From NCBI RefSeq assembly GCF_036417845.1, contig NC_089990.1, forward strand, positions 4,104,001 to 4,168,000: DNA of 64,000 nucleotides. Direction: 5' to 3'. Origin of the DNA: Apteryx mantelli. Taxonomy: Eukaryota > Chordata > Aves > Apterygiformes > Apterygidae. Each line of letters begins with the position of its first letter. Positions within the stretch are counted from its first letter, which is position 1. Below, in pieces: positions 40,301 through 64,000 of the stretch. The translations under genes were made by a program, and so were the position numbers. Under the pieces are notes generated by a model. That model worked only from the letters and a program-made list of their open reading frames with translations. It was not told the origin of the DNA and made no database searches.

Positions 40301-43300
40301 AAGGCAAAGCGCCGGCTGCTGCCGATGCCCCCGGCGCCTCCGCCGCAGCACGGGGAACGGCCCGGAGCGGGGGCTCCCGCCTCGCCGGTCGGAGCGGCCC
40401 TGGATGGAGCAGCTGGGCGTCTCGGCGTTCCTCTCCCGGGAAGCCGTGGGCGTCACTGTGCAGCCGAGAGGAGGGGTTTCCAGCACTTCGCTCCTCTCGC
40501 CGCTGCGGATCAGGGATGCTTCCCTGTAAGGCGCTGCCATTCCTCCCTCAAAGCAGAGAGTCCTCTCCTCACCCCAGCCTGGCAGGGGAGGACTCGCGTC
40601 CCCGCCAGCACAGCGAGGGGGACCGGGGAGAGCGCAGGGCACGGGGCCGGGTGGAGGCAGCTAAGGAAACAACGGAGAATAGCAAGGAAAGCAGGCGCAC
40701 AGAAAATAAACTAAGAAATAGGAGACATCCAAGAGAGCAAGGGAGAAGAAATGAAAGATCTAGGAAGGGAGAAAGGGCAAGGGAGAAGAAAAGCAAAGCA
40801 AAAAGAAACAAGAAACCCCGAGCTCAGAAATTTCCCGTCTCCCTGTGGCCAGGATCAGGGGTTCTCAATTACTGGCATTGCCTGAGCAAGCTGATTTGTG
40901 TCCTAGAGAAGGAAAGAGGGACGAGGAAAGAAAAGACGGGCGCCAGGAGGTGGGAGGCAGCGCGCGTTACCACTGGGACGGGGCTGTGCTGGGCAGCACG
41001 TGTGGGCATGCCTCGCGCGCTGGAGCCGTGCGTGCGGGGTATGAGCACGCATGACGTCGGGGAACATGCACCGCCATATGCAGCCGCGAGCACGTTTCGC
41101 GTGGCAGAGCGTCGGCACCCACGGCCGCCCCGGCACAGGCACCGTGCACTTTCTCATCTGCTCGCATGCAAAGCGGAGCAGAGAAAGGCTCCGACGGGAG
41201 ATGGAGGAGCTCCCAGGGAGGTGAACAGCTCTGCTGTTTTTATGGGGAAGCCTCTTGGCCCGCTCTTCCTCCTCCCCGCTCTGCCTGCACATTCGCTTCC
41301 ACCTCTATTGTTGGAAGTGCTTCCAGGGACACGTATATCATTTAAAGGGGCAGTCCTGCATAATGGCAGACTTGCCGTTATCCTAACGCTGTCGAGGACC
41401 GAGGCGCTACCTCTTCATTTCCTGCAGAAAAGCTCAGCTTTGCACCTGCAGCATCCAGCCAATTCTACCCCGAGCATGACATCTCCCAGGCTGCCAGAGC
41501 CAAGCCAATCTGCCTCCGTGCAAGCCGTGCACAGCTGTTCCCATTTCACCACCTTTTGTCCCTCTGCCCACAACCGGACTGCAAAGAACATGGATTCCTA
41601 AAGGCTCCGACACCTGGCACCTTCGGAGCAGAAGGGGAGCTTTGCCGAGGTATTTGCTGCAAAGCTTTACCCACTGCATACATTTGCTACACCCCGGGGA
41701 GCAATCCTGTCTTCTCTGACACAGGCAGTGCACATACCACACACATGTCGTATTATACATGCAGACCCCACTGTGCTCACACAGCCTCGCACACGGGCAT
41801 CGGCCTCGCTGTAGCTGGCAATGCCGGGTGAAGGTTTTGATTTTTTTCCATCTCCAGAAAGGCTACGGCCGAGCAGAGAATCACAACATGGACTTTCCGA
41901 CCAACGCAACCCCTAGGGCTCCGAGGCAGCACCACAAAGACACAATGATTTCTCCTCCACCATTGCAAAGCATGAAAGGCTCCGCTGCCCAGCCTGCCAC
42001 AGCAGTCATGCAGCTGGCATTTTGCCCCTTCCATCCTGCTTGCAATCATCTTACCAGGAGCCCTGGGCTGGCCCTTTCATGCAAGCAGGAGGGGAAACGA
42101 GGGAACAGACCTGCTTCGATCGCTCTGCTCCCATCCAGCTCCCAGAGCTCAATGCACTGGATGGAGCAAAGGAAAGGGATAGCAAAGGAAAGATGAAAAA
42201 CGCTTGCGAGGAGTCAGCAGGCAAGAGAGAGACAAGACTGATTTTGATGCAAAGAGTAGCAAAGAAACAGACAGGAACCGGTAACAGCTGATAGGAAGGT
42301 GGCTGGGTTTTGGGGCGCTTTCTGTAAACATCATCTGAGCGTTTCAGCTTGGAATCAGATTAATTCAACCAGAGCTACAGATTTAGACAGTAATGAAGAA
42401 AAAACACAGGGAAGGGAAGAAGAGGGTTGTGTTTTGTGAGGGGAAAGGAGGAGAGAATTCCAATTGATTCCTGTGTCTCTGCCTGCATACAGCATCTTGA
42501 AATAATAATTAGAAGGATCAATAAGAAATCATGGGAGGTTTGAAGATAATGAATGAAAGAGTCAGAAGCAGCAAATTGAAATGCCTTTCCCTAAAGCCGG
42601 GTAAATTGTTTTTCAGGCAGGGTCTAGCCTCCATTTTAATGCTTTGCAAACAGCTCCAACCATTTTCTAAGCTGGCTTGTGGGTTCAAAACAAGAATGGT
42701 CCCTCCATGCAGAGGAGGACGAGAGCCCCAGCCTGCGAATCGGTCCTGAAGGAGAACGCGAATAAAATGACCGCGTGCGGGGAGCGATGGAGGCAGCGAA
42801 ACGGGGCAGAAAGCACACCGCACGCCGGCGACCGGGGACGCGTTACGTAATGATCCCGGGGAGCAGGGAGCCGGCGAGGGAAGCGGCACCCAAGGGGGAG
42901 CGGGCGGCGCTCGGGGGGCGCCGGGCGGGCAGCGCGTGGGCGCGCGGCGAGCGCGGCGCGACGGCCGCCTCGACGGGGCTCCGCCGGCCCGGCCCCATCG
43001 CGGCTCGGCCCCGGGGAGGCCGCCGCCGCCGCGTCCCGGGGAGCGGGGGCCCGGCGGCGGCGCCCCCCCGGCGCTGGCCCGTACCTGCTCGTACCAGTCG
43101 CGGCTCGAACACGTGCACTCGGGCCACCAGCCCGGGCCGCTGCCGTTCACCTTGGGCGCGCTCTTCCCCGGCGGCGGCGGCGGCGGCGGCGGCTTCAGCG
43201 CGGCGGCAGCGGCAGCGGCGGCGGCGTCGCGGGCGGGGGGCCCCAGCTTGGCCTTGCCGCGGGCGGCGGGCGCGGCCCCCCCCGGCGCCGGCAGCGTCTG

Positions 43301-43435
43301 CGAGCCGTAGCCGCCGTAGCCGTACTGCTCGTGCTGCCACTCGCCGTACGAGGGGGGCTCCATGCGCCGCAGGGCCGCCATCCGCGTCACCTCGTAGCAC
43401 TCGGGGCACTTGCAGCAGTGGTGGTGCTTGTGCAT
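1222..43435 (-). CDS. DLG3: DLG3 (SAP102) classical isoform, joined exons, 3' part missing
   Basis: This is the coding span of the synaptic scaffold SAP102, which links NMDA-receptor and other class I PDZ ligands to the postsynaptic density. The join, in transcript order, is 43435-43085, 21193-21143, 19076-18952, 18868-18699, 17927-17791, 17696-17552, 17337-17178, 11417-11261, 11130-11028 and 1336-1222. Every junction has a GT donor and AG acceptor and the phases agree throughout, giving 504 complete codons plus two bases. Domains by residue are a Cys/His N terminus 1-12, PDZ1 about 130-218, PDZ2 about 225-312, PDZ3 about 381-462, then the linker to SH3. I assign DLG3 rather than DLG1, 2 or 4 because of the [13 protein letters not shown] start, the HVPDDPGIF stretch of PDZ1 and the [20 protein letters not shown] linker. 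These match my memory of mammalian SAP102; no alignment was run. SH3, HOOK and guanylate kinase exons lie outside the window. Confidence 0.95.
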
Positions 43436-46400
43436 CGCTGCCCTCACACCATCGAGCCGGCAGCGAGGCGGGAGGCGGGCGCGGAGGGAGGGAGCGAGCG
43501 AGGGAGGGAGCGAGGGATGCGCGGGGGGCGGGAGCGGCCCCCGCCCCGCGCACGCGGCGCGCCCGGCCCCGCGGGCGGCGACGGCCGCGCGGTTACCTCC
43601 GCGGGGCCGCGCTCCGCATGGCCGGGGCCGGGGCCGCGGCTCCGCTGCGCGGGGCGGCTCGGCGCGGCGCGGCACCTGCGGCGGCGGCGCCGAGCATCCC
43701 CCGCCTCCCCCCCCCCCCCAAAAAAAAAAAACACAAAAAAAACCACCCGCCGCGGCCAATCCGCGCCCGCGCAGCCTCCGCGCACCGCCCCGCGCAGCCC
43801 CGCGCGCCGCCCACCCGCGCCTCGCCGCCCTCCGCGGGGCCCCGCGGCGCGGCCCCCACCGCGCGGGGCAGCGTCCCGCCGCGCCCCGAAACGCGGAGCG
43901 GCGCGGAGGCGGCGCCCGCCCGGGGGGAGCCCTTCACCGTCTCGCCGTGGCGGGGCTTCACCCGCAGCCACCCCCGTGGCCCCTGCCCAGGTCGGGGCGC
44001 GCGGGCTCCCCGTTGCTCTAGACCCAGCAGTCCCGCCAGCTTTGCCGTGCGCGCCCATCGGCCGTGATCCACACCGGGATATGAAACGAGTTTCCCAGGG
44101 ATCGGAGACGGTGCAGTAGCCCGACAGCAGCAGCTCTGCTGCCGTCCCAACACCAGCTCTCGCCCCGCTTTGCTGGGGGTGTTACTCCGCAGCACCCTGG
44201 TGTCACCACCATCGCCCAGCAAGCCGCGGGTCCGAAGGGGTGTAGAAACCTCCAGGGCACCTCCTGGGCCTCCCACCTGCTGCTGGCAGGGGATGGCAAA
44301 AGCAGGGCGCGCTGGGGCTGGGGCTGCAGGAACCTCCGCGGGGGGAGTGGGGCGAGGGCGCTGCTCCCGCTGCAGCTCTTGCAACAGAGGTGCCAGACTG
44401 GAAGAAGATCAGAAGAAAGTCACCCAAACAAGTCGAAGGGTGGAAGGAAAGGCCAGTGCAAGAAAATATAGCTGACAAGTCAGGAGAACCTGAACCTGGA
44501 CTTCTAGTTCTTGAAGGCTGTAGTAAACACTAGGGCAGGTGAAGAATTACTTAGGGAAAAGATACATAGATATGTAGAACAACAGTGGGATGAAGGGAGA
44601 GTGTTTAAAATTAGGCCAGATACAGGCCTAGACGCTGCTGAGAAGAATGATCTTGTTTGAGGCATGGGCTAAGTCAGTGCAGTCTCATTCTGCATCATGG
44701 AAGAGGCAGCAGGCAAGGCCAGGGATCGCCGAGGCAGTCTGCGATGGCAACACGAGCAAAGCGCGAGGAACCCCGCTCATCGGGACACTTCCCTTCGGCG
44801 GACAGGTGTCCAATAAAGCTGAACCATTACTAGCGCTTTTTGCCTGTTTTGGATGATGGTAAATCAGCAGTAGGTGCTGGCACTACAACCAGTTCAGTTC
44901 AGGTGTTGCGGAGCCGTTGAAGTGGCTCCACTTTTACCTGCTCCAACAGTCCCATCCTCTCTCCTCCAACCCCCCCCTTCCTGGCCCTTTGCTGTCCGTA
45001 CCGCGGGCGCCTGGTCGGCAGATCGTGGTGGCCAACAACCCCGATTTAGGCTGCAAGATCTAAGAGCTCCTGCTGGCCTCCGAGCAGCTGGCACAATATG
45101 GCCCTGCTCAGAGGCCAGCCTTTGGGAGGAGGAAGCGGGTGACAGCAGAACAAATGTCCCTGCCTGCTTCTTGTTTCCTCAGCTCTTTAAACTGCAGCAC
45201 AAAAGTACTTCTGTACTTTACCACTGCGGATAGACAGGCTCCAGCAGTGTTCGCTCCCAAGTGGTCAAGTGCAGCAGTTGCTCCCAGGTGTAGGAGAGGG
45301 GGCAGAAGACCCCTCTCCTTCAGACCCACGTTGTCCCAGGAGCCCCAGGCGCCGAGATCCCCACCGTGCAGCTGGGAGCCCTTCGTCTCCTGTGCTGGCT
45401 GGTGTTCGTCGCCTTGGGGCTGCGTAGGTTACCTCCAGCACAGAATGGATGTTACAACCATTTGCTGCTCCATGCCTGATGGAGCTCTGTTGTGGCTCAG
45501 ATATATTCACACAGAAAATACCCCGGCTCCCAAGTTCAGGACACTCATAAAGCTCAAGTTCAGAGAGCCCTGTTCCTCTGCGCTGGCATCAAGAGCGCCT
45601 CACACTGTCAGAGCCCTTGGAGACCAGTTTTCTGCTGGCGAGTCTCTCTCAGCAACTGCTGCTAGCCCTGCTGCTCCAAGGGGCTCTCGGTGGCACACAC
45701 ACAGGCCAGGAGCACTGCACCGGGTGACAGACACCCTGCACCCCGGGCACGCTGCAGCACCGACCCAAAGAGGCAGGAGACACAGCAAGAGGAAGCCAGC
45801 AGCTGCAGGTAAGAAAAGGCTTTTACCCTGCAGAACCTGCTGCTGTAGGACACTGCAGGCACCAAGCACTTACTAAGGTGAAGAAGGATTGGAGGTCTAC
45901 ATGGATAACAAGCCCCTTCAGAGTTATTTTAATCAAAGAAAAAGTGTGTGTTTGTGTATGTGTGCGTGGAGGGAAAGCTCACAGTGTTGGAATTAATGGA
46001 GAAGTTTATACTTCAGGCTTTCAGCAATTAGGATCATGTCCACATCTTCTACTGCTCCTTGAGACACCTCTCAAAGCACTTTTACTCTGCGGGGGATGTT
46101 TTCCGTGGAGAGTGGGCATCTTGCCGCGGTGAGGGCAGAAGCAGGAATGAGGGGTCAGACTGGGACACTAACGAAGCTGCCTGAGGCGCTTGCTCCACCA
46201 AAGCAGAGCAACGAGCCGGAAGCTTTGCAGAAACAGGTGGGAGGCCAGTGCCTCCCACATAAGAGTCAAGGGACACAAAGTCCATCTTGCCTACCCACCA
46301 CCTCCCACCCTGTGACACCTGCGAGACCCGAGTCGCTTCATCATCAAAAACAGAGGTGCCCAGAATCTGTAACGCACCGATAATTAATTACTGCTCTGAC

Positions 46401-52400: not shown

Positions 52401-55400
52401 CAGCAGCCTCCTGGGAGGCTGGGGCGGCTGCGCAGGGCAGCGGGGCGGGAGCGCGGGCACGGGGACCAAAATGGAAGCGGTGCCTGGCAGGTACTGGCTG
52501 GCTGGGGCTGTCGGAGAGGGGCTGGTGTCTGCTCAGCGCTGGCGCCCCGCAGATGCCAGCACATGGTCTGTCGCACGGGACCGCGCGCTTGCACCAGCAC
52601 AAAGCAAAACTGCCCTAAAGCAAGCAGCAATGGCAGCTCAAAAGGATGGACGGACGGACAACCCTATCTCCGGCACGGCTTTCCGGAAGCGGGGGGCGAG
52701 CGGCACTGGCTCGCAGGCGCAGGGCCGCTGCTCGGCAGCGCTGTTGTTCCCGCTTCACTTTCTCGCTGCGCCAGCAGCAGGGGGGGCACAAGGTCGGCGT
52801 CTGCAGGGGAACGACGGCTTCCTGCAGCCCCAGCCGGAGCACGGACAAGCCGGGCTGGCGGCTCCCGCTTCCGTAGCAGGGCCCGTTTCCGCGCGGCAGG
52901 GCCGTCCGGCCGCCCGCACCTCCTCGCCGGCGGTTCCCTGCTCCTGGAGGCGTCCGTGCAGACGGGCGAGCTGCTTCTCGCCACGGGTTTCTCACGCATT
53001 GGCCCGGCTCAAGCAGGTCGCAGCGGCTCGAGCTCTGCCATTGCCGGCGGCGGGAGCTGCAAGCGGGGCTGGGGACGAAGCCGGGACAACAGGAAACTTA
53101 TTTACGCTGACGGATGCGAGAAGAGAGCGGCACTTACTGCAGGCGCGACGGGACACTTCATCTCGCTTCCTTTTCTCGGCGGTGGGGTGGCAGCCAGCGC
53201 CCCGGCCCCCGCGGCGGCAGCCGTCGCTCTGCCCCGCAGCTTAGCACTAAGTATCTCCCCCTTAGAAAGCTTCCCCGGCTCTCGTGTGTGCCGTTTGCCG
53301 TCTCGAGGGCTTTCCCGAAACCCGCTTCGGAAATGCCACACAGCCCCCGCCGGAGCCTGGGAAACGCGTCGCCCCGGAGCCGGGTGCTCGGGTGTCACCC
53401 AGCCCCGACGCCACTTGGACCTTCGGGAACCGAAACCGAAGCGCCCAGGTGCCGGCGCCAGTGCCGAGGCCCCTCTCCCGCCTGTCGAGGTCCCGGCTAT
53501 GAAAGGAGGAGGCTGCAAATAACAAAGCGTCGGGAAAGAACGACGGGAATTATTTCAGGGCTGGGAAAAACCTGCCTCGCGCAGTGAAAGCGAAGCAGCC
53601 AAATCCGTTTCGTTTATCTGCAGGAAAGCGGAGAGGGAAGTCAGACGCATCTATAAATACCTACACGTTGGGAACATTTCTGATTGCTGCGGCCCTTGAT
53701 CCCAGCAAACAAAGGCAGCAAAACCTCCCGGGGCCGGGAGCTAACGCGAGAGAAATGCAGGCTGGCAGCAAGCGCAGGTTTTCAGCGGCGAGGATACCTA
53801 ACCGTCGGGACAGCGGATTCCCCAGCACGTGCACTCTTAAAACCAAGGCGAGATAGCTGCTGCTAAAGGACCCGTCGCAACGCACACACACGTTCGGGGC
53901 CTGGTGCAAGAGCCGATACTCTCCGGAGCCTGGGATAGTTAGGAAGAAAAATCCTTAAAATCTGCAGGCCGGACTGGTTCCCCCCCCCCCAGCCGTTACG
54001 GGTTTTTGCAACCCTCCCCGGAGCCACCTTCCCCTTCTCTGAGCACAGCAGACTCACTGCCAGAGACTGGAAATTTGCTCCAGGTTTTTAGTTAAAAAAA
54101 GCAGCTTTTTTCTAAAACAATCTCCTACTCTGTAAAAATGTGTTTTGTCAAAACTCGTGTTTTGGCTGTTCCCTTTCTCCCGTGGGAGGAAGGTGCAGCG
54201 TCCCTGCAAGGGAAGGGTCCCGGCTCTGTTGCTCCCTGCACATCTGCCCTGCTCCCTGCTGCGGCCAAGCCGAGCCGAGCCGAGCCTCTCGCATCGTCCC
54301 ATTGCATCCCTAAAACCCCAGTCCTGCCCCTCCAACATCCCTAAAGACTTGGAGAAAGTTGGAAAAGACTTGGAAAAGACAGAGAGAAGCAAAAGGAAAA
54401 GGAGAAATTAAACAGTAAGGGGGAAAAAAAAAAGGAGGATGGGGCATTACCCGTTTTATTGCAGTCCAGAACGAGACGGAAAACATTTAAAAAGGAGAGA
54501 GAAGAAGCGGTGACCCGTTCACCTGTCCAACGTTTCGGGAGAAGAGCTCCCGCGCAGACGCCGTTCCGAGCGCCGCCGAGGCCGACGCGGTGCGCGCGGC
54601 GCTCGAAACCCCGCGGCCGCCCCGGCGCGGAGCCTCACCTGGGGCAGGGCGCCACGCGCGCCCACCAGCAGGCCGCGGACGCTGGCCGGCGCCTCCGTCC
54701 TCCGCGCCGTCACCCGCACCAGGCGCGGCCGGGCCCCCGCCGGCGGCCTCCGCTCGGCGCCCTGCAACGAGACGCGCGGGCGGCTAGCGGGGGTTCCCGC
54801 GGCGTGGGGGGTCCCCGCCGCCCCCCGCTCGCGCCCGCCTTGAGGTGTCAACGCTTTTACCGACCGTGGCGTCTCCCGGGGGGCGGAATAGGGTCGGTGC
54901 CTGCTAGAGACGCCCGGAAAAGCAACCCCGGGGGCTCGCCGCCCCCCCCCTCCCGGCCCCCGCCGCTCGCTGCAGGGCTCGACGCCACCGAAAAGGGGCT
55001 GTTGGCTTTTCCCAGCGGTGCCCCCCCCCCCCCCCCGGTGCCGCCCCGGTGCGACGGGGCCGGCGGAACCGCCCGGGAGCGGTTTTTTAGGAGGCTGTTG
55101 AAAATTAAAGCCGATGCAAAGGAGAGGCACCAAATTTATGGGGGGGGCTGAAAGAAAAAAAAGAGAAAAATCCGGCGAAGGGGAAGCTAAAGGACTCGAG
55201 CTCCCTCTGGGAAGGTGGCTGCGGGATGGGGCTTACCTCGGGGGGGCCGGGGGGCTCGGCCGGGGGGCCGGGTGCGCCTGCCCCGACCTGCTGCCTGCCG
55301 GTGCTGGGGCTGGTGCTGGGGGCCGGGGTCGGTTCGGCGAGCGACGCCGGGGCCGAGCGCAGCGTCAGGTCGTAGAACTCGTGGATATCTGCAAAACAGC

Positions 55401-58400
55401 GCCGAGAGGTGCCCAGGACCGGGGAAGCGAGCCGCCGCGCCGCCGGGACGCCCGCCCCATCCCATCCCATCCCGTTCCATCCCGTCCCACCACCCGGCCG
55501 GGTGCGGGCATCTCCGTCCGTCCGGGCCTCGAGGGGAGCTTGCCAGCACCCCGTTTGCGGGTGCAGAAGCGTGTTATTAAGAAATAGCGCTCGCAGGAGG
55601 CACAGAGGCTGTTTGAAGATGCCGCACTGGCATAAGCGCAGAAAGGAGGGAAGCGGGGCTGGACAGCAGGGCGAGGGAGGCTATTAAAAGCGAGGAGACG
55701 TTCTTCTAAACAGCCGAAGTTGTGTCCAAAGGAGAAAAACAGACAGAATGGTAAATGCTGCCAGGTTAAATGCAGAGCTCCGAGAAGGTCGGCCAGAAGA
55801 GTTTGGGAAGAGCCTCGCGAAAGGCCTAAAACAGTAATAAAACCCTGCACGCGCCTGGGAGACAGGGAGCCCGTCGGGGAGTCCGCAGGGCCAAAAAGTG
55901 AGCGTGCCATGAATAAGCACCCGGGGAGGGTAAAGCCACAGCAGAGAGGCTCAACTCATCTCTGTATCTGCGCCTGCTGCGGAGGAGGCCGGAGAGCCCC
56001 GTGAAGGGGTGCGAAGGGTTACGGACAGACGGACGGTACCAAACCCCGGTGGCGCAGGGCGTTCGCCCAAGCGATCCGAGGGCGCTCGAGGACGAAACAC
56101 GGACCTACCTGCTCCAGTGGGCAATTTCTCCTTTTAAACCGTCCCCCAGCAGGGGACTGCGGGGTATTAAATGCCCATTTTTAAAAGATTTCCAGTGGAA
56201 ACCTGGCAAGGCGCTGGGAAAGGGTCCTCAGCCGCCCTGGCAGCCTGTCTGGCTGGTTCGATACACTGGGATGGGCTCCAGACCGGCCGTACCGCTGCGA
56301 AGGAGATCTTGGAGCTACGGTCGATAATTCTGGGGAAGTGATAACCTAATTCACGGCTCAGGAAATACCGGAGCTACAAAACACTTGAGGCCGGAAGAAT
56401 CGCTGGCTCCCCGCAGCCGGCTCGGAAGAGCATCCAGCACTCAGAGCGGAGTAAGACGGGGGCATCTCCACCGCAGCCGCCGGGAGTGCCGGGAAAGCAG
56501 CCCGGAGCCGGCGGAAAATTGACCCGAGGTCGCGGTGACCCGTCATCACGCAGCCGGACAAACGGGACTTTGTTTCAGGGCAAAAACATCTCTCCCTCCC
56601 GTTATAAAAATAAGTCGTTGCCTAACAGGCAGCCAGGGGCTCCTCATGGCACGGCTTACGCACGGCTCCGCTCGGGATGTGCCAAACTCCGGGGAAACGA
56701 AAACAGGATTTCAAGAGCATGCGGCCCCCCAGCCTGCCCCGTCTGCACGCGGACCGCGGCCCCGGGAGCCGCAGCCGCCCGCCTGGCAGCCCCGCTCGGC
56801 CGGCAAAAGGCATCGCAGTGACACGGGTGTCTCGCAGGCCGTGGGCACGGGCGTAATTCAAGTTAAATTACATTTACTTGTTTCCTTCACTTCCTTTGGG
56901 CTTTGCGGCTTTGCTTCACCTGCGCGTTTTAAGAACGGCGCTACCCTCGTAAGGGGACGTTGCGGCAGCAACAGCCGATGCCGCACGCGCTGTCGTGCAG
57001 CCCAGTTGCTGTCTGACGGCAGCGTAAATCCGCCCTGGCTCCAGTAAGGAAGAGCAACTCAAGATTTATGCAGAGTAACTCAGATCGGAATTAGCCTAAC
57101 AATTTCCTCCTGGGGCCAATACATCAAACGAACGGCACCAAACCTTCCCGTCGCACCGGAAGCGGAGGGATAATGCAGCATCCTCGTGCCGACCAGCGCG
57201 CGCGCTTGCAGAAAATGACCTTCCTGCTCCGATGGGTGCGGATTTGCTCCGAGAAACTCCACTCTCGCAGCAGCGGCACGGTGCTGGTGTGACCCCGGCG
57301 CCGCGGCGAGTCTGCACCGGCGACCGCTCGGCCGCGGGAAAGGAGCCGGCCCCGGAGGGCTTGCGGGAGGAGCGCTGCCTTTTTGGCCGCCGCCGGCCTG
57401 GGCGGGCGAGCGTGCACACGCCGAGCTTCTCCGGCCGGCTTCGCCCTCCGCGCGGGGCACAACGGCCCCTTTCAGGCTGCTCCGGGAGGGAAAGGTCAGC
57501 AGAGTGGCTCCTGTGGGTGATGGGCGATGCTGGGCGGCACGGCACGGCGCGGAGCATCTTCCCAGCCGGGCTCCAGGAGCGGGAATTGCTGCGAACGGCA
57601 CCTCTGCCCTCGCTGGCTCCGACCCCCGTTTGCAGGGAGCGGAGCCGCAACGCCGGGCGGGGAGCGTCACAGCCGGCTGCGCTTGGCTGGGGCGGCAACG
57701 GTGCCAAAAAACATGAAAAGCAGCACAAAGAGCAGCACGGGGTGTTTTTGTGGCACCCAGCACCCTTTTTCTGGGCTGTTTCCCTACAAATCATGAGCTT
57801 GGCTCAGCGATCTCGGCCAAATCAAGCGAAAGGCCGGGAGGAGGGAGCCAGTAAATCCCATTTTCCCTGCGTGCGGCCCAAGAATTTCTTCCGTGCCGGA
57901 GCCGCGGTCGGCGCGTCCCTGAGCAGAGCAGCGCGCGGGGCCACAAAAGAGCCGATTCATGCCAAAGCCTACAAAAAGCCGAATCTCTTCGGTTTTCCAC
58001 GTGGGACGTCCGGGCATTTGGCATTTCTGGTAACGATCGCGCAACGCGTTTCGGGGTGCAAACTCAGCAGGGCCAGCGCGCGTCTCAGGGCAGCGCTGCC
58101 CGTAGGCGGGCGAGGTCTGCGTCCAAGCACGTACCAGCCCCGCGTTCCCGAAAGCCTGCGGGAGGACGAGGCTCCGCTGGCCGGGATCTCTCCGGAGCCG
58201 GACGCATCTGCCGCCGCGCGGGGCAGCGAAAGGGGAGCGCCGCGGGAGGCGTTCAACCCTCGCAGCGCCTCCCTCCGAAAACTCCCCGCCTGCGGCTCTG
58301 TCCCAGCTTCGGGGAAAAGGGCGAGCGAAAAGCAAAGAAAGGCTGGAAACGCTCCACCCTCCCGGAGCGAGCCAGGGCCGTCGCCACGCTCCGACGGGCC

Positions 58401-61400
58401 GGGACCGCGGGAGCCGAGAGCCGCCGGCGCGCATCCGCCGCAGCGAGCAGCAGCCCGGCAGCGTCCCGCGTCCCTGCGCTGGGACGGAGGAATTTGCACA
58501 CGCGCATGCTTCGGGGGGGGGGGGGGGGAGGAAGCAATTAAGGCAAATTCCTCGTTAGGTAAACACTTCTAGAGAAAGCTTGCCGTGGCGGGGGGGGACT
58601 AATATCCTGTTCAACCAGTTCAGAAAGGGCACCGGAGGAGCGGCGCTCCCTCGTGCCCGTGCTGGTGGGACGCGAGGGCGGGCGGCTCGGAGCGGCGCGT
58701 CGGGAAGGTCCGCGCGCACACGCGCTCTGCCCGGCTACGTTCCCGCCACCACGCTCCTGCGCTGAAATGAAGCGTCGGGCTTCGTGCCACCTTGGGATGC
58801 TCCCGTGGAGGGGTGGGATCCCCCCACCTGTGCCAGGGGGATCGCAGCAGTCGCTGGGGGCCACGGCCCTGAACCCGCAGCAGTGTCCCCGCGCAGTTTA
58901 ATGCAGACTGTGACAATGTCCAGAGCGGTTGTGTAAACCAGGGGTCCAGAAAGGAGGTGCACGCCGGCCCCGCGCGCTACCGGAGCTGCTCCTTGTCCGT
59001 GTCCCTGCTACCAAGTCCACTTCACAACGACAAGCTTGGGCTGAAAGCCTCTACGGGTGATGCACAAACATCAAGAACAAGGAAAGTGAGAGTAAAACAG
59101 CTCCGGATCCACCCCGGAGGAGGGACACAGAGGAACCAAGCTCTTCGTGACACTCGTCCCGTGACCGTCTTCTGCTTTTCGCTGGGGAAACTGAGCCACG
59201 GGGTGATGCTCGCAACCTGGTGCCGGGGTCTGTGCTGAGATGCTGCAAGTTGCAAGCACATGGGCATGGGACTAGCAGCCGGTGCTCCTGCAGGAGTCCT
59301 GCTTTCTGCCCCCACCTACCCCACTCCGGGCCGGCTCATGCGGGAGCTCCTGCTGACCCCTGCATGGCCAAACACCGATGGCCGGCTTCACCTCGCGCGT
59401 CCCACTGACGCCTCTCCGCGAGAGGGGGCGGCTGAGCCACTGCCCACCCCGACCCTGCGCAGGGCCAAGGGATGCTCCTCCTTGAACAGGTACGGGCAGG
59501 AGAGAAGGAGCAGCAGGGAAAGGTGCTAAGAGGGCCAAGAGACAGAGAGAAGTGGGAGATGCTAATCTGGACTCTTGCAGGCAGAGAAAAGGGTGTCTGG
59601 CTGCAGGGTGTGAAGAAAAGATGCGAGCTGCCAAGATGGGACAGCGCTCTGGAGGAGCACCGGGGCCAAGAGTGGGACAAAACGTGCCGAGGACGGTGCA
59701 GAGCCAACCCTAGACCTCGTGCTGCCCTGGGCTGTGGGTCCTCCCGAGCCCTGCCAGTGAACGTGGCTGGTGGCAATGGCCTGAGCCCGTGGGAAGGAAA
59801 GGGAAACATGGTTTCCTCCAAAAGACCTGGGAATGGCAACCTCAAGGACTGCACGCGTTTCCCCTGGGGCCTCCAGGAAGCAGCACTTAAGGAGAGGAGC
59901 AGCGAGGGAGCTCCTGCCTCTCGCGGCACATTGGATCTTCTGTAAATCCTTTGCTGGGATTATCTTCAAAACTTGTGCCCTAAGAGAAACCGCAAAACCA
60001 GAACCTGGCCTGTTCCAGCGGGGAACGGAGCCAAGCGACTTCGGAGTCCAAAACACCAGATTTTTTTTTTTTAAATCCTTCACAAAGAAAGTGCGTTTTC
60101 AAATGACATCATACAGTGAGGTATCCACGCACTTCGCACAGAGCTGTGTAGTCCAGCGCGACTCCAGCTGTGTTTGTCTAATTCCACACAGACAGTGCTA
60201 CACTGTGCTCAAAATGGCATTTGCTGGTCCCCAGCCCGAAGCCAAGCCCGGCCGTCAAGCCCACTCCTTGTGTGAGATGCAGTCGCTTGCACGGCATGTC
60301 ACTCGCAAGCGCTCGCGGGTCGAAGCGTGAGAAAGGCCGGGCTGCTCCGAACGGAGCTGCGTGCGTGTGAATTCTCCCAAGCAAAGGCAGAAAATCTAGT
60401 TTTCCTTCGGGCTGGCAGCAAGCATGGGAAGCAGCAGGTTGAAGTGGGTGCAGGAGGGACCAGGACCCCTTTGGGGACTGTTGTCTGCACGGCGGCACAG
60501 CCGAAACACGGTGCTGCACAGCCTGGTGGTGACTGCAGACAGGAGCCCGGGTGTTTGCATGGGATGTCCCCAGCCTGGTCAGGACACGGGCCCCCAGGCA
60601 GGATTGGGGCAGCCTCGGTCACCGCCCTGGCATCTCCAGCAGTCAGCAGAGCCCACTGACCACAAAGCTTCAGGGACCAGAAGGAAGGGGCTTACCCAGC
60701 AGAGCCTGGAAGAGCTCGCTTTGGAAGATGTGTGAGACCTTTCCAATGGAGGCTTTCAACTCCTGCTCCTCTGGAGACCTCAAGGTGCTTTGGTATCTGG
60801 TCAGAATTTCCACTGCCCGTTCGGTGTCTGCAGAGATGACACAGGAGTAATGAGGTGTTAATGCCAAAAGCTAGCTACACATCATCTGGGAAGGCTTAGG
60901 GGCACTGCCTTAGAGCAGTGCAAAGGGGTGGCCTTGGTAAGACCTCAAGTTGCCTTCCAGCTCCAGATTTTTGAGTCAGCCAGCGACAAAAGCAGCCTCC
61001 TTGCACACACTCGGAAGAGCTTAGCACCTCTTCCTTTCTGGTGAACTTCCAGGCACACCAGTGAAGTCGGTGAGCCCAGCTAACCTGGCTGGGAGCTGCA
61101 GACAACGCATGGTGGAAAGCTGGACATGGGCTTTAAAGATGATTTTGCCCACTGGTGCTCTCTAACCCTCAGAGGCTAAACCCACAGTGACTTACCTCTA
61201 AACCTTTGCAGTGCTGGGCAATCTGAGCACAACTGCCATCTCCCTGGCAGGAAAACCATTTAGGAGCTGGACCCATCCCTGTTGCACAGGGTTATTAGCG
61301 CTAGCATGAGGAACTCTTCACAGTCTCCCATGTGGGGCCAGATGTCTGCAGTGAAGATGATCACTACAGCCTGTCCCCTTCGTCTAGTGCAAGATATCGT

Positions 61401-63202
61401 AAACAACTCAGCTACGCGAGTGGCAAAACCCACATTTCTACAGGCTGAAGCGTGGGAATTGCTCCACGCAGAGAGCTGGCCTTGGGTCAGCAGGAGATGG
61501 GAGCTGCTTGGTGGGTTCCTCAGGCTATGGAAAACGTGGGGGACACGATGTCCTAGGGAAGTAGGATGGAGGGATGCTGGCCAGGCAGGGGAGCCTGGAG
61601 CTGGGATAAAGCAGTGCTTTGGTTAAAGACTGGGCTCACCCATGGAGCTGTAGCTGTGGGACCATCCCGGTCTGGAACAGAGCTGTGATCTCTCTGTGCC
61701 AGGAGAGCTCCACGCTTCTCTGGGCAAACGTCCGGAGCTGCCAGCCCAGCTCTGCAGACAGGAAAAGCCAATTCCAGCCCCAGATACGACCCATTTCTCA
61801 AACAGGAGGAACGCTCCCATGGACTTTGAGCAGCGCCAGATGTGACCCATCTCTCCGCCGGGAGGAGAGCTCCCATGGACCTTGGGCCCGTCCCAGCCCT
61901 ATCAGTGAATATTTCCCTTTGTTTCTGAGGCGGCCAGCAGACAAAGGGCGTCTGTGCAAGGAGGCGGGGGAGGCGTCCCGGGAGCGTCGGGCACTCATCT
62001 TTTAACCCGGGAATTCATGCAAAAAGGATGGCCTTACTCGTCCCAGGGCTCGCAGCCGGGAATTCAGGTCACCGAACAAGGGGACCTGTGTCTGCCAGGG
62101 CCGGAGCACATGCCACCTGCTGTCCCAGCCCTTGGCCCCCAGGCAGCACTCGCCCCGCCGGCTCCCTGCTCCTCCTTGGCCGAAAGGGGAAGGGGTCCCG
62201 CCGGCGTCACGGGACCGCACTGACTCATCGCAGGAGCAGAAGGGGGAAAGGCGCGTGGGGAAGTGCGACCAGCCCCTCGCCCATGGAGACGCTCTGAGCC
62301 GGGCCCTGCTCAGAACTGAGCTCCATGCCAGCTCGGGAAAGGCCGGGACTTCCTGGAGCGCCAGATCCATTGGGCTTTATGAGCATCCCAGCCTCGTATT
62401 AGCGTGGAGGGTTTCCCTTTCTACAAGGAGAGACAGTGGCTTCAGACGCTGCCCAGCATCCCGCAAGCTGAGTTGAGTCATCTTCGCCTGGTCATTCCCA
62501 ACCTTATCAGCAGAGGCTAAAGAAGAGGGAGGAGAACCGGAGCCACCAGGCCGGTGCGCACGGAGATCGCCGACGTCCCGCCCCAATCCGAGCCGTACAG
62601 AAAAGGTGGAGCGCGCCGTGCACTGCCCCCTGCGCTGCTGGGCACCGGGTGACACCGGGCGGGAGCAGGGGAGCGCTGGCTCCGCACCGCCGAACCCGGG
62701 GAACCGCCGTACCCCCAACGCGTACATGGAGGGAGACAGGAACACCCTTCTTGCCACACCCACTGTCACATCCTTCAGGAAGGAGCGCGGGACACCCAGG
62801 GCCCGTCTCACCATGCCCCAAGCAGCGCAGGGAGGATCCCGCAGTGCCCGTAAGCCCGCGGCCACCCTCCCTGTGACACCCGACAGGGCTGCGAACGTGG
62901 GCAGCGTCCCACGGCTGCGCGCTCCAGAGCGGGCTGGCACGAGGACGCGGCCAGCGGCCCGGGCAGGGCGTGAAGCCGGAGTGCCCGTGGGGTCTCCCAC
63001 CCGGGGGGCACCGGGGGAGGCGTGCGTGGGGCAGGGCGGCCCGGACGGCAGCGGGAAGGAGGGAGGGAGGGAGGGAGCACCGGTGCCGGTGGGGCAGACA
63101 CTTGTTGAGCGCGGCGGGGCCGCGGTGCCCGGCGCTGCAGGCAGGACAGGACGGGACGGGACAGGGCAGGGCAGGACGCTCCTTACCTTCCCTGCGGATC
63201 AT
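1222..63202 (-). CDS. DLG3: DLG3 L27-containing long-5' isoform, joined exons, 3' part missing
   Basis: An alternative 5' end of the same gene joins 63202-63187, 60827-60696, 55388-55237 and 30017-29964 to the shared exon at 21193-21143 and onward. The four upstream exons total 354 bases, exactly 118 codons, and deliver phase 0 to the shared exon. Residues about 6-60 form an L27 domain, 61-100 a Pro/Ala-rich linker, and 101-118 the NTDSLE linker. L27 domains mediate heteromeric assembly with partners such as CASK and MPP proteins. The arrangement mirrors the L27 forms of SAP97 and PSD-93. Exon identity and phases are seen directly. That one transcript joins all four is inferred, and an extra exon at 54.7 kb may be inserted. 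Confidence 0.8.
2450..2880. other. CpG-dense patch inside intron 9
   Basis: The stretch is rich in CG dinucleotides, with runs such as cggcgcgcgcgcg near 2650. No core promoter motif or splice donor with a convincing exon was found, so it is listed only as a composition feature. It may mark an unmethylated regulatory element. Confidence 0.4.
9315..9365. repeat. Three tandem copies of a 17-base unit
   Basis: The unit GAGATCCCGGGCCCTTG occurs at 9315-9331 and 9332-9348, and a third copy at 9349-9365 differs only in its last base. Each copy contains the self-complementary CCCGGG. Copies this similar suggest recent local expansion. Confidence 0.95.
10640..10830 (-). promoter_or_regulatory. DLG3: Candidate internal promoter with alternative first exon
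   Basis: Read on the minus strand, an inverted CCAAT box (GATTGG, around 10820-10825) is followed by GC-box-like sequence. Next comes a CpG-rich segment ending in CTGCAG at 10697 and an excellent donor GTGAGC at 10696-10691. That is the layout of a TATA-less promoter with a first exon of about 100 bases. The exon has no ATG in frame with exon 10, so it would be untranslated. Splicing to 1336 would allow translation from MMNSSM in exon 10, giving an SH3-guanylate kinase product. A 14-base palindrome CCTGTCGCGACAGG lies just downstream at 10661-10674. Human DLG3 is known to have shorter isoforms lacking the first PDZ domains, but I cannot show this is the equivalent. Confidence 0.35.
10861..11011. 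repeat. Five-copy 31-32 base array of GC box plus ATCTGCAT
   Basis: Units beginning CATCTGCA start at 10861, 10893, 10924, 10955 and 10987. Each carries CATCTGCATGCGG or a close variant, followed by a GC box such as GCCCCGCCC. ATCTGCAT resembles a POU octamer with one difference. The array ends 16 bases before the exon 9 donor, so it is both intronic next to a splice site and directly upstream, on the minus strand, of the candidate internal promoter. Confidence 0.9.
11028..11130 (-). CDS. DLG3: DLG3 exon 9: second half of PDZ3
   Basis: The exon has 103 bases and encodes residues 433-466, starting [20 protein letters not shown] and ending QYRPE, with the first base of the next Glu codon at its end. 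The His of THEQA is the start of PDZ helix alphaB and marks class I specificity for Ser/Thr-X-hydrophobic C termini. The acceptor is GTGCCGCAG and the donor GTAGGC. Almost every codon ends in G or C, in contrast to exon 10. Confidence 0.95.
11261..11417 (-). CDS. DLG3: DLG3 exon 8: first half of PDZ3
   Basis: The exon has 157 bases and encodes residues 381-432 after completing a split Arg codon. It opens [20 protein letters not shown], with the GLGF carboxylate-binding loop, and ends with the GDRILS strand. The acceptor is CCCCCTCCAG and the donor [15 protein letters not shown] and [12 protein letters not shown] match SAP102 as recalled, where PSD-95 has HRGSTGLGF and GELRKGDQILS. The following intron is only 130 bases and contains a run of 14 C at 11241-11254. 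Confidence 0.95.
11418..17177 (-). other. DLG3: DLG3 intron 7, 5.8 kb
   Basis: I found no DLG exon here. The intron is moderately GC-rich and contains AT-richer blocks at about 16640-16900. A stop-free minus-strand frame at 14440-15021 was judged fortuitous. No transposon or RNA gene was recognised. Confidence 0.7.
17178..17337 (-). CDS. DLG3: DLG3 exon 7: PDZ2-PDZ3 linker
   Basis: The exon has 160 bases and encodes residues 328-379, opening [20 protein letters not shown] and ending [10 protein letters not shown], with split Thr and Arg codons at its ends. This flexible linker separates the PDZ1-PDZ2 tandem from PDZ3. The [17 protein letters not shown] and [10 protein letters not shown] segments are characteristic of SAP102. 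The acceptor is CTCCCCCGCAG and the donor GTGAGT. Confidence 0.95.
17552..17696 (-). CDS. DLG3: DLG3 exon 6: second half of PDZ2
   Basis: The exon has 145 bases and encodes residues 279-326, from [20 protein letters not shown] to MYAPPDYAS, and ends with the first base of a Thr codon. The His of VRHEE is the PDZ2 alphaB1 residue that sets class I specificity. [15 protein letters not shown] fits SAP102. The acceptor is CTGCCGCAG and the donor GTACGT. The intron before it is only 94 bases. Confidence 0.95.
17791..17927 (-). CDS. DLG3: DLG3 exon 5: first half of PDZ2
   Basis: The exon has 137 bases and encodes residues 234-278, opening [20 protein letters not shown] and ending GDRLLA. The GLGF binding loop is split across the exon 4/exon 5 junction. 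[27 protein letters not shown] is the near-invariant PDZ2 signature of the family; the longest identical part I rely on is [20 protein letters not shown]. The acceptor is GCCCGCAG and the donor GTAAGC. Confidence 0.95.
17928..18698 (-). other. DLG3: DLG3 intron 4, mostly minisatellite
   Basis: The intron is 771 bases long. Apart from about 60 bases at its 3' end and a few next to the donor, it consists of the minisatellite described separately. The donor is GTGAAG at 18698-18693. Confidence 0.9.
17985..18685. repeat. GC-rich minisatellite filling intron 4
   Basis: Degenerate units built on GCATCCC(G/A)CCCCATG alternate with GAGGGGC(C/T)(A/G)CCCCAC, giving a higher-order period of roughly 40-50 bases over about 700 bases. 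On the transcribed (minus) strand it is a succession of GGGG and GGG tracts, a composition able to form G-quadruplexes in DNA or pre-mRNA. All three minus-strand frames stay open for long distances, and one runs directly on from exon 4. Confidence 0.92.
18699..18868 (-). CDS. DLG3: DLG3 exon 4: second half of PDZ1 and start of PDZ2
   Basis: The exon has 170 bases and encodes residues 177-232, from [20 protein letters not shown] through [20 protein letters not shown] to K. Split Gly codons lie at both ends. The His of [10 protein letters not shown] is the PDZ1 alphaB1 residue. The [15 protein letters not shown] inter-PDZ linker is the SAP102 version. The acceptor is GTGCCCGCAG and the donor GTGAAG, a slightly weak donor that borders the minisatellite. 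Confidence 0.95.
18952..19076 (-). CDS. DLG3: DLG3 exon 3: first half of PDZ1
   Basis: The exon has 125 bases and encodes residues 135-175, opening [20 protein letters not shown] and ending AAAMDGRL plus two bases of Gly. The GLGF loop lies at residues 138-141. [20 protein letters not shown] distinguishes SAP102 from SAP97 and PSD-95, which have GDDSSIF or a similar sequence here. The acceptor is CCTTTCCGACAG and the donor GTGAGC. The following intron is only 83 bases. Confidence 0.96.
19077..21142 (-). other. DLG3: DLG3 intron 2, 2.1 kb
   Basis: The intron is GC-rich close to exon 3, including four copies of CGAGCAC spaced seven bases apart at about 19150-19178 and a C run near 19499-19511. 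No exon or mobile element was recognised. Several long open frames here reflect high GC content only. Confidence 0.7.
21143..21193 (-). CDS. DLG3: DLG3 exon 2: shared entry exon to PDZ1
   Basis: The exon has 51 bases, exactly 17 codons, encoding [17 protein letters not shown] (residues 118-134 of the classical isoform). Both ends are in phase 0 or agree with it, so it accepts the SAP102 start exon (ending WYEQ) or the cassette exon at 30.0 kb (ending GLS). It corresponds to the VNGT...YEEITLER segment of SAP97, PSD-93 and PSD-95. The acceptor is CCTCTCCCCAG and the donor GTAAGT. Confidence 0.97.
22906..22967. repeat. Four tandem copies of a 15-16 base unit
   Basis: Units CCCCTGGGATACATCA at 22921-22936 and 22937-22952 are identical. 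The flanking units at 22906-22920 and 22953-22967 are the 15-base variant CCCCGGGATGCGT plus two bases. The outer pair and inner pair resemble each other, suggesting duplication from the centre. Confidence 0.92.
23219..23302 (-). mobile_element. CR1 LINE 3' end remnant
   Basis: The plus strand reads AGGCTGGAAGGGACCTTTGG followed by a motif like AGATC...CAACTCCT...AAAGCAGGGCCA. This is the reverse complement of the familiar avian CR1 3' end, so the element is minus-oriented. It is 5'-truncated, as most CR1 copies are. It is the best clue here that the DNA is avian or archosaurian. Confidence 0.75.
23345..23390 (+). mobile_element. Probable second CR1 fragment
   Basis: The motif GGGTAGATTCAGATTAGGCA followed by TTAGGAAAG resembles an internal CR1 segment in plus orientation. 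It lies about 45 bases from the minus-oriented fragment. The match is short and from memory. Confidence 0.4.
25245..25340. promoter_or_regulatory. Candidate enhancer block with RFX X-box
   Basis: This AT-rich block sits between GC-rich flanks. It holds a homeodomain-type core CTAATTGCATAA at about 25272-25283 and a perfect match to the RFX X-box consensus, GTAACCACGGTAAC at 25317-25330. Its sharp contrast in composition is typical of constrained noncoding elements, but conservation was not tested. Confidence 0.35.
27447..27500. repeat. Fragment of an ancient amniote repeat
   Basis: The sequence GGGGCCAAATTCAGCCC, followed downstream by AAAATCAATGGAGCTA, resembles one arm of a palindromic element common in sauropsid genomes. 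The match rests on recall of that consensus and is divergent. Confidence 0.35.
29964..30017 (-). CDS. DLG3: DLG3 cassette exon encoding the NTDSLE linker
   Basis: The exon has 54 bases, 18 codons in phase 0 at both ends, encoding [18 protein letters not shown]. The acceptor is CCCCTCACAG and the donor GTAAGT. The same motif precedes the VNGT exon in SAP97 (ANPPPVLVNTDSLE), PSD-93 ([11 protein letters not shown]) and PSD-95 (PPVIVNTDTLE) as I recall them, so this is an orthologous linker exon and not chance. In frame it leads straight into VNGSDG of exon 2. It could be used with the L27 exons or, because both phases are 0, inserted after the SAP102 start exon. Confidence 0.9.
31083..31216. repeat. 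Short-period simple repeats in a CpG patch
   Basis: Four copies of CCGGG at about 31083-31105 are followed by about four copies of a six-base CCCCTT unit at about 31190-31216. These are low-complexity tracts in a CpG-dense intronic segment. Confidence 0.85.
33222..33330. repeat. Old interspersed repeat (MIR/L3-like 3' end)
   Basis: TATTATTATTATTTACCAAG is followed by GGGCTGTACAAA and AGGTCCCTGCCCTG. This order resembles the 3' region of an ancient amniote LINE or SINE. The family cannot be fixed without a repeat library. Confidence 0.4.
37937..37979. repeat. CCT triplet microsatellite
   Basis: Two runs of CTC/CCT triplets, about six and seven copies, are separated by one variant unit. The transcribed strand is an AGG purine tract. 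Confidence 0.95.
40660..40820. repeat. Purine-rich low-complexity tract
   Basis: About 160 bases are almost entirely A and G on the plus strand, with motifs such as GGGAGAAGAAAAGCAAAGC. Such tracts can be unusually structured, and this one contributes to a long chance open frame. Confidence 0.85.
42830..43990 (-). promoter_or_regulatory. DLG3: CpG island and promoter region of the SAP102 isoform
   Basis: CG dinucleotides are dense from just inside intron 1 through the start exon and about 550 bases upstream. No TATA box was seen near the start codon. GC-rich elements and GGAGGGAGCGAGCGAGGG-like repeats occupy the probable 5' UTR at about 43470-43520. A C13-A12 junction at 43707-43731 lies further upstream. 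The exact transcription start is not defined by sequence alone. Confidence 0.7.
43085..43435 (-). CDS. DLG3: DLG3 exon 1: SAP102 Cys/His-rich start exon
   Basis: The exon codes for 351 bases, residues 1-117, from ATG at 43435 to the donor GTACGG. It begins [15 protein letters not shown] and ends [15 protein letters not shown], both hallmark SAP102 segments. The N-terminal Cys/His cluster of SAP102 is reported to bind zinc, and the N-terminal region contributes to NMDA-receptor subunit interaction. Between residues 71 and 89 there is a run of nine Ala, Leu-Lys, then eight Pro, longer low-complexity tracts than I recall in mammals. The frame stays open upstream to 43759, but homology fixes this Met as the start. 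The context has G at -3. Confidence 0.95.
44390..44650 (+). mobile_element. Probable degraded LINE (CR1-like) segment
   Basis: The AT-richer stretch contains GAAGAATTACTTAGGGAAAA and nearby phrases reminiscent of a CR1 subfamily widespread in sauropsids. It has no open frame. The identification rests on a short resemblance and needs a repeat-library comparison. Confidence 0.35.
50500..50720 (-). promoter_or_regulatory. Promoter-like block with CCAAT, GC and TATA-like boxes
   Basis: On the minus strand, in the expected order and spacing, are an inverted CCAAT (ATTGG, 50598-50594), a GC box (GGGGCGGGGC, 50570-50561) and CATAAAG (50552-50546). A start near 50515-50520 is predicted. The plus strand also has CCAAT followed by TTAAAGG near 50641, so it could be bidirectional. 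No convincing first exon with a donor was found, and no mRNA is implied. Confidence 0.4.
54639..54761 (-). CDS. DLG3: Possible additional linker exon of DLG3
   Basis: The segment is 123 bases, 41 codons in phase 0 at both ends, with acceptor CTCGTTGCAG and donor GTGAGG. It would encode an Arg/Ala/Gly-rich linker starting [14 protein letters not shown] and ending GARGALPQ. It fits the phases of the L27 isoform between the 55.3 kb and 30.0 kb exons. It lacks a good pyrimidine tract and any family motif, and lies in GC-rich DNA where chance open segments are common. Confidence 0.3.
55021..55036. repeat. C16 homopolymer
   Basis: An uninterrupted run of 16 C lies in the short intron segment downstream of the L27-3 exon. 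Similar runs occur at 58513-58528 (G16), 49271-49285 (G15) and 63649-63666 (C18). Confidence 0.98.
55237..55388 (-). CDS. DLG3: DLG3 exon L27-3: end of L27 domain and Pro/Ala linker
   Basis: The exon has 152 bases. After completing a split Asp codon it encodes residues 51-100 of the L27 isoform, opening [15 protein letters not shown] and continuing as a Pro/Ala/Gly-rich linker to [13 protein letters not shown] corresponds to IQEFYEVTL, the last helix of the L27 domain in SAP97. The acceptor is GCTGTTTTGCAG and the donor GTAAGC, leaving phase 0. No counterpart of the YRYQDED exon found in SAP97 and PSD-95 was seen anywhere downstream. Confidence 0.88.
55389..60695 (-). other. DLG3: DLG3 intron between L27-2 and L27-3
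   Basis: The 5.3 kb include a CpG-rich patch at about 57200-58500 and a G16 run at 58513-58528. No exon, RNA gene or mobile element was recognised. Confidence 0.7.
60696..60827 (-). CDS. DLG3: DLG3 exon L27-2: core of the L27 domain
   Basis: The exon has 132 bases. It completes an Asp codon and encodes residues 7-49, opening [20 protein letters not shown] and closing [11 protein letters not shown], with the first base of the next Asp codon. The pattern DTxRAxxLLxxYxxxL...IFQSxLFQALxDIxEFY is that of the L27 domain of SAP97 and relatives, which pairs with L27 domains of CASK, Veli or MPP proteins. The acceptor is GTCATCTCTGCAG and the donor GTAAGC. Codon use is mixed, unlike the GC-saturated PDZ exons. 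Confidence 0.92.
60828..63186 (-). other. DLG3: DLG3 first intron of the L27 isoform
   Basis: The 2.4 kb contain an imperfect tandem duplication at 61781-61884 and the inner edge of the promoter CpG island from about 62550 onward, including CCAAT in a GC-rich setting at about 62584. No other feature was recognised. Confidence 0.7.
61781..61884. repeat. Imperfect tandem duplication, period 56
   Basis: Two 48-base copies (61781-61828 and 61837-61884) share GACCCAT, a purine-rich middle and CTCCCATGGAC near the end. They differ at roughly a fifth of positions, so the duplication is not recent. Confidence 0.85.
63187..63202 (-). CDS. DLG3: DLG3 exon L27-1: short start exon
   Basis: Only 16 coding bases are present: ATG ATC CGC AGG GAA plus G, encoding MIRRE and the first base of Asp, followed by the strong donor GTAAGG. 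SAP97 begins with an equally short start exon (MPVRKQ before DTQRA), and the phase matches the 60.8 kb acceptor exactly. The start codon context has G at -3. It lies inside a CpG island, as expected for a first exon. Confidence 0.85.
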
Positions 63203-64000
63203 CGCTCCGCCGCGGCCGGCGGCCGCTCCGCTCGGTGCCAGCCCGCGAGCGGCCGAGCCCGCCGCCCGCCCCGCCCCGCCCCGCGGGGACCGGCCGAGGA
63301 GCCGCCTCCCGCCGCCGCCGCCCGCCTCCCGCCGCCGCCCGCCTCCCGCCGCCCCCGGGGCGCTCCGCCGCCGGCCCCGCTCCCCCGGCCGCCGCCGCCA
63401 CCGGCACCGGCCCCGCCCCGGCGCGGAGCTGCTCGGAGCCCGGCCCGGCCGGCGCCCCGGTGCCCTCGGCGGCTGCCGGCCCCCGCCGGCACCACTTCCC
63501 CGCGCCGGCACTAGATGGCACGGACACGCCGCGCATCCCCGCCGGGCGGCAGAGGGTAAGGGGTGCAGGGGAAGGGAAGCGTTAGCTTCGGGGTCTACCT
63601 CTCGGTTCATTTATTGACATAAATAGCTAGGAACAAGTAAAACAGACTCCCCCCCCCCCCCCCCCCTCCAAGTGCAAGGCCCTGCCACAAAGTGACTGAC
63701 CGCGAATAACACTGCTCCCCTCCCTTGCGTCCCTGCGGCAGCAGGAGTGTGACCGTGGCTCAGCCCGGGATGTGCCCCGGGACACACTTTCTGCTCCAGG
63801 ACAGACAGGTCTCTCCAAACCCAGCCCCAGCTTCCTCTTCCACCAGCTCAACGGGCCCTGCTGGGTTGGCTGCTGGCACCCCAGCCCACAAGCATGAAGC
63901 CAGCAGTAAGAGCAGGACTCCAGTGCCCAGCACTGGGTTTGGAGGGGCTCTGCTCCTTATCCAGCCCTATCTGTCTTCTAAAAAGCCCCCTCCCTTGCAG
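63203..64000. other. 5' UTR and upstream flank of the L27 isoform
   Basis: The first roughly 350 bases are CpG island and probable 5' UTR. Beyond about 63560 the sequence becomes less CG-rich, with a C18 run at 63649-63666 and no recognisable gene to the window end. Confidence 0.6.
63508..63521 (+). promoter_or_regulatory. Candidate CTCF site at CpG island edge
   Basis: GCACTAGATGGCAC matches the CTCF core pattern CCASYAGRKGGCRS at 13 of 14 positions. It stands at the outer edge of the L27 promoter island, a common location for CTCF. Confidence 0.4.

Follow-up and report, generated by a model that had tools for sequence, protein, structure and literature searches.

Isoforms beginning with an L27 domain have been described for DLG1, DLG2 and DLG4, and in these genes the L27 start is alternative to a start without L27 (PMC7962242). 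In DLG2/PSD-93 the two starts have separate promoters (PMC6389146). The alternative heads of DLG2/PSD-93 and DLG4/PSD-95 include palmitoylated ones (PMC6365469), the corresponding head of DLG3 being the Cys/His exon. The L27 domain of SAP97 serves dimerisation (PMC6502786, PMC6365469) and CASK binding (PMC6365469), and both papers place the L27 form perisynaptically or outside the PSD. The coexistence of L27 and non-L27 starts is old, since Drosophila dlg, although a single gene, has both, its two transcription start sites giving rise to DLGA and DLGS97 (PMC5004195), and sponge dlg has L27; the source for the sponge gene adds that the mammalian paralogues except SAP-97 lost that L27 (PMC1876816).

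For DLG3, the available text of PMC7962242 gives every encoded protein as lacking L27, and that of PMC3979375 states that SAP102 has neither a palmitoylation site nor L27 and forms no homo-oligomers. Contrary to both, the legend of Figure 4 in a review (PMC6365469) places L27 in the SAP102 N-terminus. The remark of the initial annotation that mammalian SAP102 is usually listed without L27 is thus borne out by the first two sources and contradicted by the legend. Literature searches pairing SAP102 or DLG3 with L27 returned no title on an L27-containing DLG3, and a remark inside a text may have passed unseen. Below we describe three exons encoding an L27 domain upstream of DLG3 in a bird, Apteryx mantelli. 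An L27 5' end on bird DLG3 is contrary to most descriptions of mammalian SAP102; the surprise is modest, because the paralogues and the fly gene have L27 forms too, and automatic bird gene models may already include these exons.

The DLG3 gene and the exons upstream of it

The analysed stretch of 64,000 nucleotides, further referred to as the window, corresponds to positions 4104001-4168000 of contig C13 and contains no N. It was searched by tblastn using an approximate human DLG3 sequence as the query, and in the same way with an approximate DLG1 sequence. Profile scans covered the whole genome (1.504 Gb, 408 contigs). Its alpha-A globin points to a bird: among single-copy PDB chains the highest scores go to the alpha-A chains 3a59 (283.5 bits) and 1faw (282.8), which we take to be those of ostrich and goose, against 212.2 for 1a00, taken as human alpha. 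Six tandem chains outrank them solely through containing two copies, each of roughly 203-209 bits in the five alignments given. The features found are listed in Table 1.

Table 1. Features of the DLG3 locus, in positions of the window
Feature	Position	Strand	Details
CpG-rich block, candidate promoter and 5' UTR	62501-63750	minus	surrounds L27 exon 1
L27 exon 1	63202-63187	minus	16 nt; ATG; donor AAG/GTAAGG; encodes MIRRE + 1 base
L27 exon 2, domain core	60827-60696	minus	132 nt; TGCAG/A...TGG/GTAAGC
L27 exon 3	55388-55237	minus	152 nt; TGCAG/A...GAG/GTAAGC; acceptor TTTTGCAG
Cys/His first exon, canonical SAP102	43435-43085	minus	60% identity, E 1e-47 to human DLG3 query
Linker exon	30017-29964	minus	54 nt; phase 0/0; 18 residues; acceptor CCCCTCACAG; donor TCT/GTAAGT
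First common exon	21193-21143	minus	phase 0/0; 17/17 residues identical to human DLG3 query
PDZ1-PDZ3 exons, approximate outer limits	19079-11029	minus	tblastn with human DLG3 query
Exon 5' of SH3 (EYSRFESK...)	1337-1221	minus	39/39 residues identical to human DLG3 query

The tblastn stretches covering the PDZ domains (19262-18951, 18927-18697, 17943-17785, 17696-17550, 17374-17177, 11479-11252 and 11130-11029) are 49–94% identical to the human DLG3 query, and identity is low where a stretch enters an intron. The SH3, hook and GK exons lie just beyond the window and have 66–100% identity to the same query, the lows again entering intron. SNX12, the one neighbour examined, was found at C13:4016709-4019601, with 68 kb between it and the last GK exon; human SNX12 we take to be a neighbour of human DLG3. 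The gene downstream of the L27 exons is therefore recognised as DLG3, on the grounds of its tblastn likeness to DLG3, the location of DLG1 and DLG2 on other contigs and the proximity of SNX12. Its Cys/His exon, three PDZs, SH3 and GK, together with SNX12 nearby, uphold the initial identification of an SAP102 gene at this place. Mammalian SAP102, with or without I1, has the same Cys/His head, linker exon, VNGSDGM exon, PDZs, SH3 and GK; it is described without L27 (PMC7962242, PMC3979375, in the text available), whereas the bird DLG3 carries L27 exons.

Relative to the human query sequence, the Ala and Pro runs are longer in the bird Cys/His exon, which also shows a gap of 11 residues in a Gly-rich region. 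We rejected the possibility, which the legend in PMC6365469 may suggest, of the Cys/His head being an L27: neither the bird exon nor an approximate mammalian SAP102 N-terminus matches L27 at E up to 1. When compared with Pfam, this mammalian SAP102 N-terminus gave a MAGUK_N_PEST match and no L27_1.

The ends of the three L27 exons had been placed correctly to the base by the initial annotation. Spliced together, the exons form an open frame of 100 codons with zero stops. Exon 3 encodes the last part of the domain followed by a Pro-rich tail. In scoring with a simple consensus-based matrix, the donors of exons 1, 2 and 3 fall at the 99.90th, 97.79th and 99.68th percentiles, respectively, among 3117 minus-strand GTs. 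The end of exon 3, the start of the first common exon at 21193 and the end of the Cys/His exon are all in phase 0, and hence exon 3 would join either the exon at 30017 or that at 21193 in frame.

The spliced product matches Pfam L27_1 at residues 5-61 with 84 bits (E 6.2e-24, cut-off 29.7). Exon 2 by itself gives 58.8 bits (E 4.7e-16), and the L27_1 scan across all 1.5 Gb of the genome gives it E 2.9e-12; since this value is reached genome-wide on exon 2 alone, we consider a chance origin of its match excluded. Exons 1 and 3 are weaker when taken alone, and their assignment draws on where they lie, on their phases and splice sites, and on how the spliced product aligns. Exon 1 consists of five codons only and is too short for its sequence to count as evidence. 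In the genome-wide L27_1 scan at E up to 10, exon 3 by itself is not listed, and it was not matched by the DLG1 query in tblastn of the window; exons 3 of DLG1 and DLG2 are listed in the same scan, under the cut-off. Exon 3 is recognised within the spliced product, where it is aligned to SAP97 in the comparison with PDB sequences. The closest PDB chains are 3lra and 1rso (DLG1/SAP97) and 4rp3 (Dlg1 tumor suppressor protein), the last of which we take to be the Drosophila protein. An L27 fold is predicted for the DLG3 exons from these matches, and the complete SAP97-like domain proposed initially agrees with both the profile score and the nearest chains. One scan of the L27 sequence against viral contigs gave 19 pattern matches, 0 of them confirmed.

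At E up to 10 the L27_1 profile lists 8 places genome-wide, 3 of which, on contigs C9, C1 and C13, are above the cut-off. The exon on C9 has 93% identity to an approximate human DLG1 sequence, and this contig was assigned DLG1. The locus on C1 would then, by elimination, be DLG2.

The linker exon before PDZ1 was found by tblastn with the DLG1 query at E 0.002, and its donor reaches the 94.61st percentile only. A MAGUK_N_PEST match at this exon has 30.6 bits against the cut-off of 21.6, over a stretch that enters the intron with three stops. In the spliced model the match rises to 45.8 bits (cut-off 21.6), covering only positions 68-107 of the 107 of the profile. The domain order of the spliced N-terminus is thus L27_1, MAGUK_N_PEST, PDZ, as in the beta (L27) isoforms of the paralogues. 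A table in PMC11788884 gives the pair L27_1 and MAGUK_N_PEST for human DLG1 and two other Ensembl genes. In the genome studied here, long MAGUK_N_PEST exons are also present on C9 and C1. The two other Ensembl numbers in the table are presumably DLG4 and DLG2.

In sequence the linker exon is a homologue of the linker that precedes PDZ1 in DLG1. It is likely to be the I1 cassette of SAP102, which we take to be an 18-residue cassette of similar sequence at the position of the linker exon, and it may be optional. The path from 55237 directly to 21193, suggested in the initial annotation, keeps the frame and omits this exon; a transcript with L27 that passes through the linker exon is more natural than the direct jump.

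Both putative starts lie in CpG-rich blocks. In the five 250-base bins of the block around L27 exon 1, GC ranges from 0.62 to 0.91 and CpG o/e from 0.71 to 1.02, with the peak in bin 63251-63500 (GC 0.91, CpG o/e 1.02). The 300 bases preceding the L27 start contain no ATG. The Cys/His exon has a block of its own at 42751-44000, with GC of 0.76–0.86 and CpG o/e of 1.01–1.28. The window medians are 0.61 for GC and 0.66 for CpG o/e. CpG o/e is a weak sign of a promoter here, because the whole window is GC-rich; two alternative promoters, one for L27 and one for Cys/His, would be the simplest reading.

Comparison with the L27 exons of DLG1 and DLG2

The matching splice phases claimed in the initial annotation hold against the L27 exons of DLG1 and DLG2 from the same genome, where these were found. 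Exon 1 of DLG1 encodes MPVRKQ and one base, its DLG3 counterpart MIRRE and one base; for DLG2, a search of the 4.9 kb preceding exon 2 did not reveal exon 1. Exon 2 has a length of 132 nt and identical phases in DLG1, DLG2 and DLG3. The length of exon 3 equals 167 nt in DLG1, 146 nt in DLG2 and 152 nt in DLG3, and all three end with GAG/GT in phase 0. The beta form of DLG1/SAP97 likewise has a first exon of few codons ending in phase 1, a 132-nt exon 2 and an exon 3 ending GAG/GT in phase 0. It also has a linker with N-T-D-S-L-E shortly 5' of VNG, as in DLG3; the DLG3 linker, however, is shorter, and neither the DLG1 query nor the MAGUK_N_PEST scan revealed a KYRYQDED-type PEST segment in DLG3.

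Exon 2 of DLG3 shares 22 of 44 residues with DLG1 and 26 of 44 with DLG2 of the same genome; in bases, the identity is 74/132 and 73/132, respectively. The ungapped flanks of exon 2 have 27–39 identical bases of 120 or 121. Of the 44 codons, the numbers identical at positions 1, 2 and 3 are 25, 30 and 19 for the DLG1–DLG3 pair, 27, 33 and 13 for DLG2–DLG3, and 29, 36 and 11 for DLG1–DLG2. The pN/pS ratios for the same pairs equal 0.54, 0.35 and 0.28, and they are coarse, since pS (0.68–0.96) is near saturation. In these comparisons L27 exon 2 of DLG3 bears signs of constraint. When compared with the fly L27, 27 of 54 residues match in DLG3, 35 of 54 in DLG1 and 32 of 54 in DLG2. The DLG3 domain is the most diverged among the L27s of the three genes, and because it diverges most from that of fly, relaxed constraint on it is possible.

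Possible origin and use of the L27 exons

We consider it probable that the L27 exons represent a retained ancestral 5' end of the beta type, kept in the DLG3 of this bird lineage. The L27 start would have been inherited from the single dlg gene predating the vertebrate duplications. The initial annotation had proposed that the DLG ancestor possessed two promoters, both kept by DLG3 in this lineage; this ancestry finds partial support in the intact L27 5' end on a genuine DLG3 and in the two starts of fly dlg (PMC5004195). Transcription would begin near 63.2 kb, with predicted splices 63187/60827 and 60696/55388, followed by 55237/30017 (or a direct splice to 21193) and 29964/21193. The Cys/His exon would be skipped in this transcript, being an alternative first exon driven by a separate promoter, and the product would be SAP102 with an L27 domain replacing the Cys/His head. 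If it behaves like SAP97-beta, such a protein could pair via L27 with CASK, with MPP- or LIN7-type partners or with itself, and could be located apart from the Cys/His form, perisynaptically or at the epithelial junction. A further proposition, that a functional L27-SAP102 is produced in birds, or in sauropsids generally, as a DLG scaffold of the beta type absent in mammals, is held only tentatively, and we are inclined to doubt it somewhat.

The same exons might instead be a recently silenced relic, intact in sequence and either untranscribed or unjoined to the DLG3 body. The treatment of DLG3 as the member without L27 in the available text of PMC3979375 and PMC7962242 is consistent with such a relic, as is the greater divergence of its L27 compared with the other two copies. 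The silencing would have to be recent, since several hundred million years of disuse would be expected to erase the exons. The stop-free run of 100 spliced codons, the splice sites at every L27 junction, the pN/pS of exon 2 under 1 and the CpG-rich start all speak against disuse, and we regard this explanation as unlikely. In another reading the exons are in use, but their main output is something other than an L27-SAP102 scaffold: they would serve chiefly to make a short product, or to provide an upstream start giving, for instance, a regulatory transcript or a truncated L27 protein. The distance of approximately 34 kb between the exon ending at 55237 and that at 21193, with the Cys/His promoter inside it, would suit such a use. 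Within the same interval, however, lies the linker exon, and exon 3 ends in phase 0, fitting the exon at 30017 or 21193; we judge such a use quite improbable.

Assignment of the L27 exons to another gene, to misassembly or to a duplicate of DLG1 or DLG2 seems very improbable indeed: we found no point in its support, the exons are on the same strand as DLG3 with phases compatible with it, and the window is free of N. We also rejected the idea that they are an extra copy of DLG1 or DLG2, since the L27 exons of these two genes lie on other contigs and the identity in exon 2 is only 22/44 and 26/44. If the reading of the exons as a retained beta-type start is true, the loss of L27 from DLG3 would postdate the vertebrate gene duplications and would have occurred in only some lineages. 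The L27 domain would then provide the PDZ-SH3-GK body with a domain for dimerisation and for docking of CASK or MPP. The functions of bird and mammalian DLG3 are not to be equated before their isoforms are checked.

The DLG4 (PSD-95) locus was also sought in this genome. Genome-wide, an approximate PSD-95 GK query gave 23 matches, among which no DLG4 locus is apparent. Among the best candidates scored, the best-scoring GK exon has 82% identity in DLG1, 81% in DLG2 and 73% in DLG3, and no scored match outside these three genes exceeds 51%. It is possible that DLG4 is missing through a GC-rich assembly gap. A study of 2007 reported chicken to be without DLG4 (PMC1978500); its available text does not contain the word DLG3 and mentions no L27 in DLG. 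If an L27-SAP102 is produced where DLG4 is lacking, it could assume multimerising or CASK-coupled trafficking roles. Such roles are given in mammals to SAP97-beta and PSD-95.

The short I1-type cassette of DLG3 and the final part of the linker in the L27 form of DLG1 are homologous, which suggests that the mammalian I1 itself is what remains of the ancestral PEST linker.
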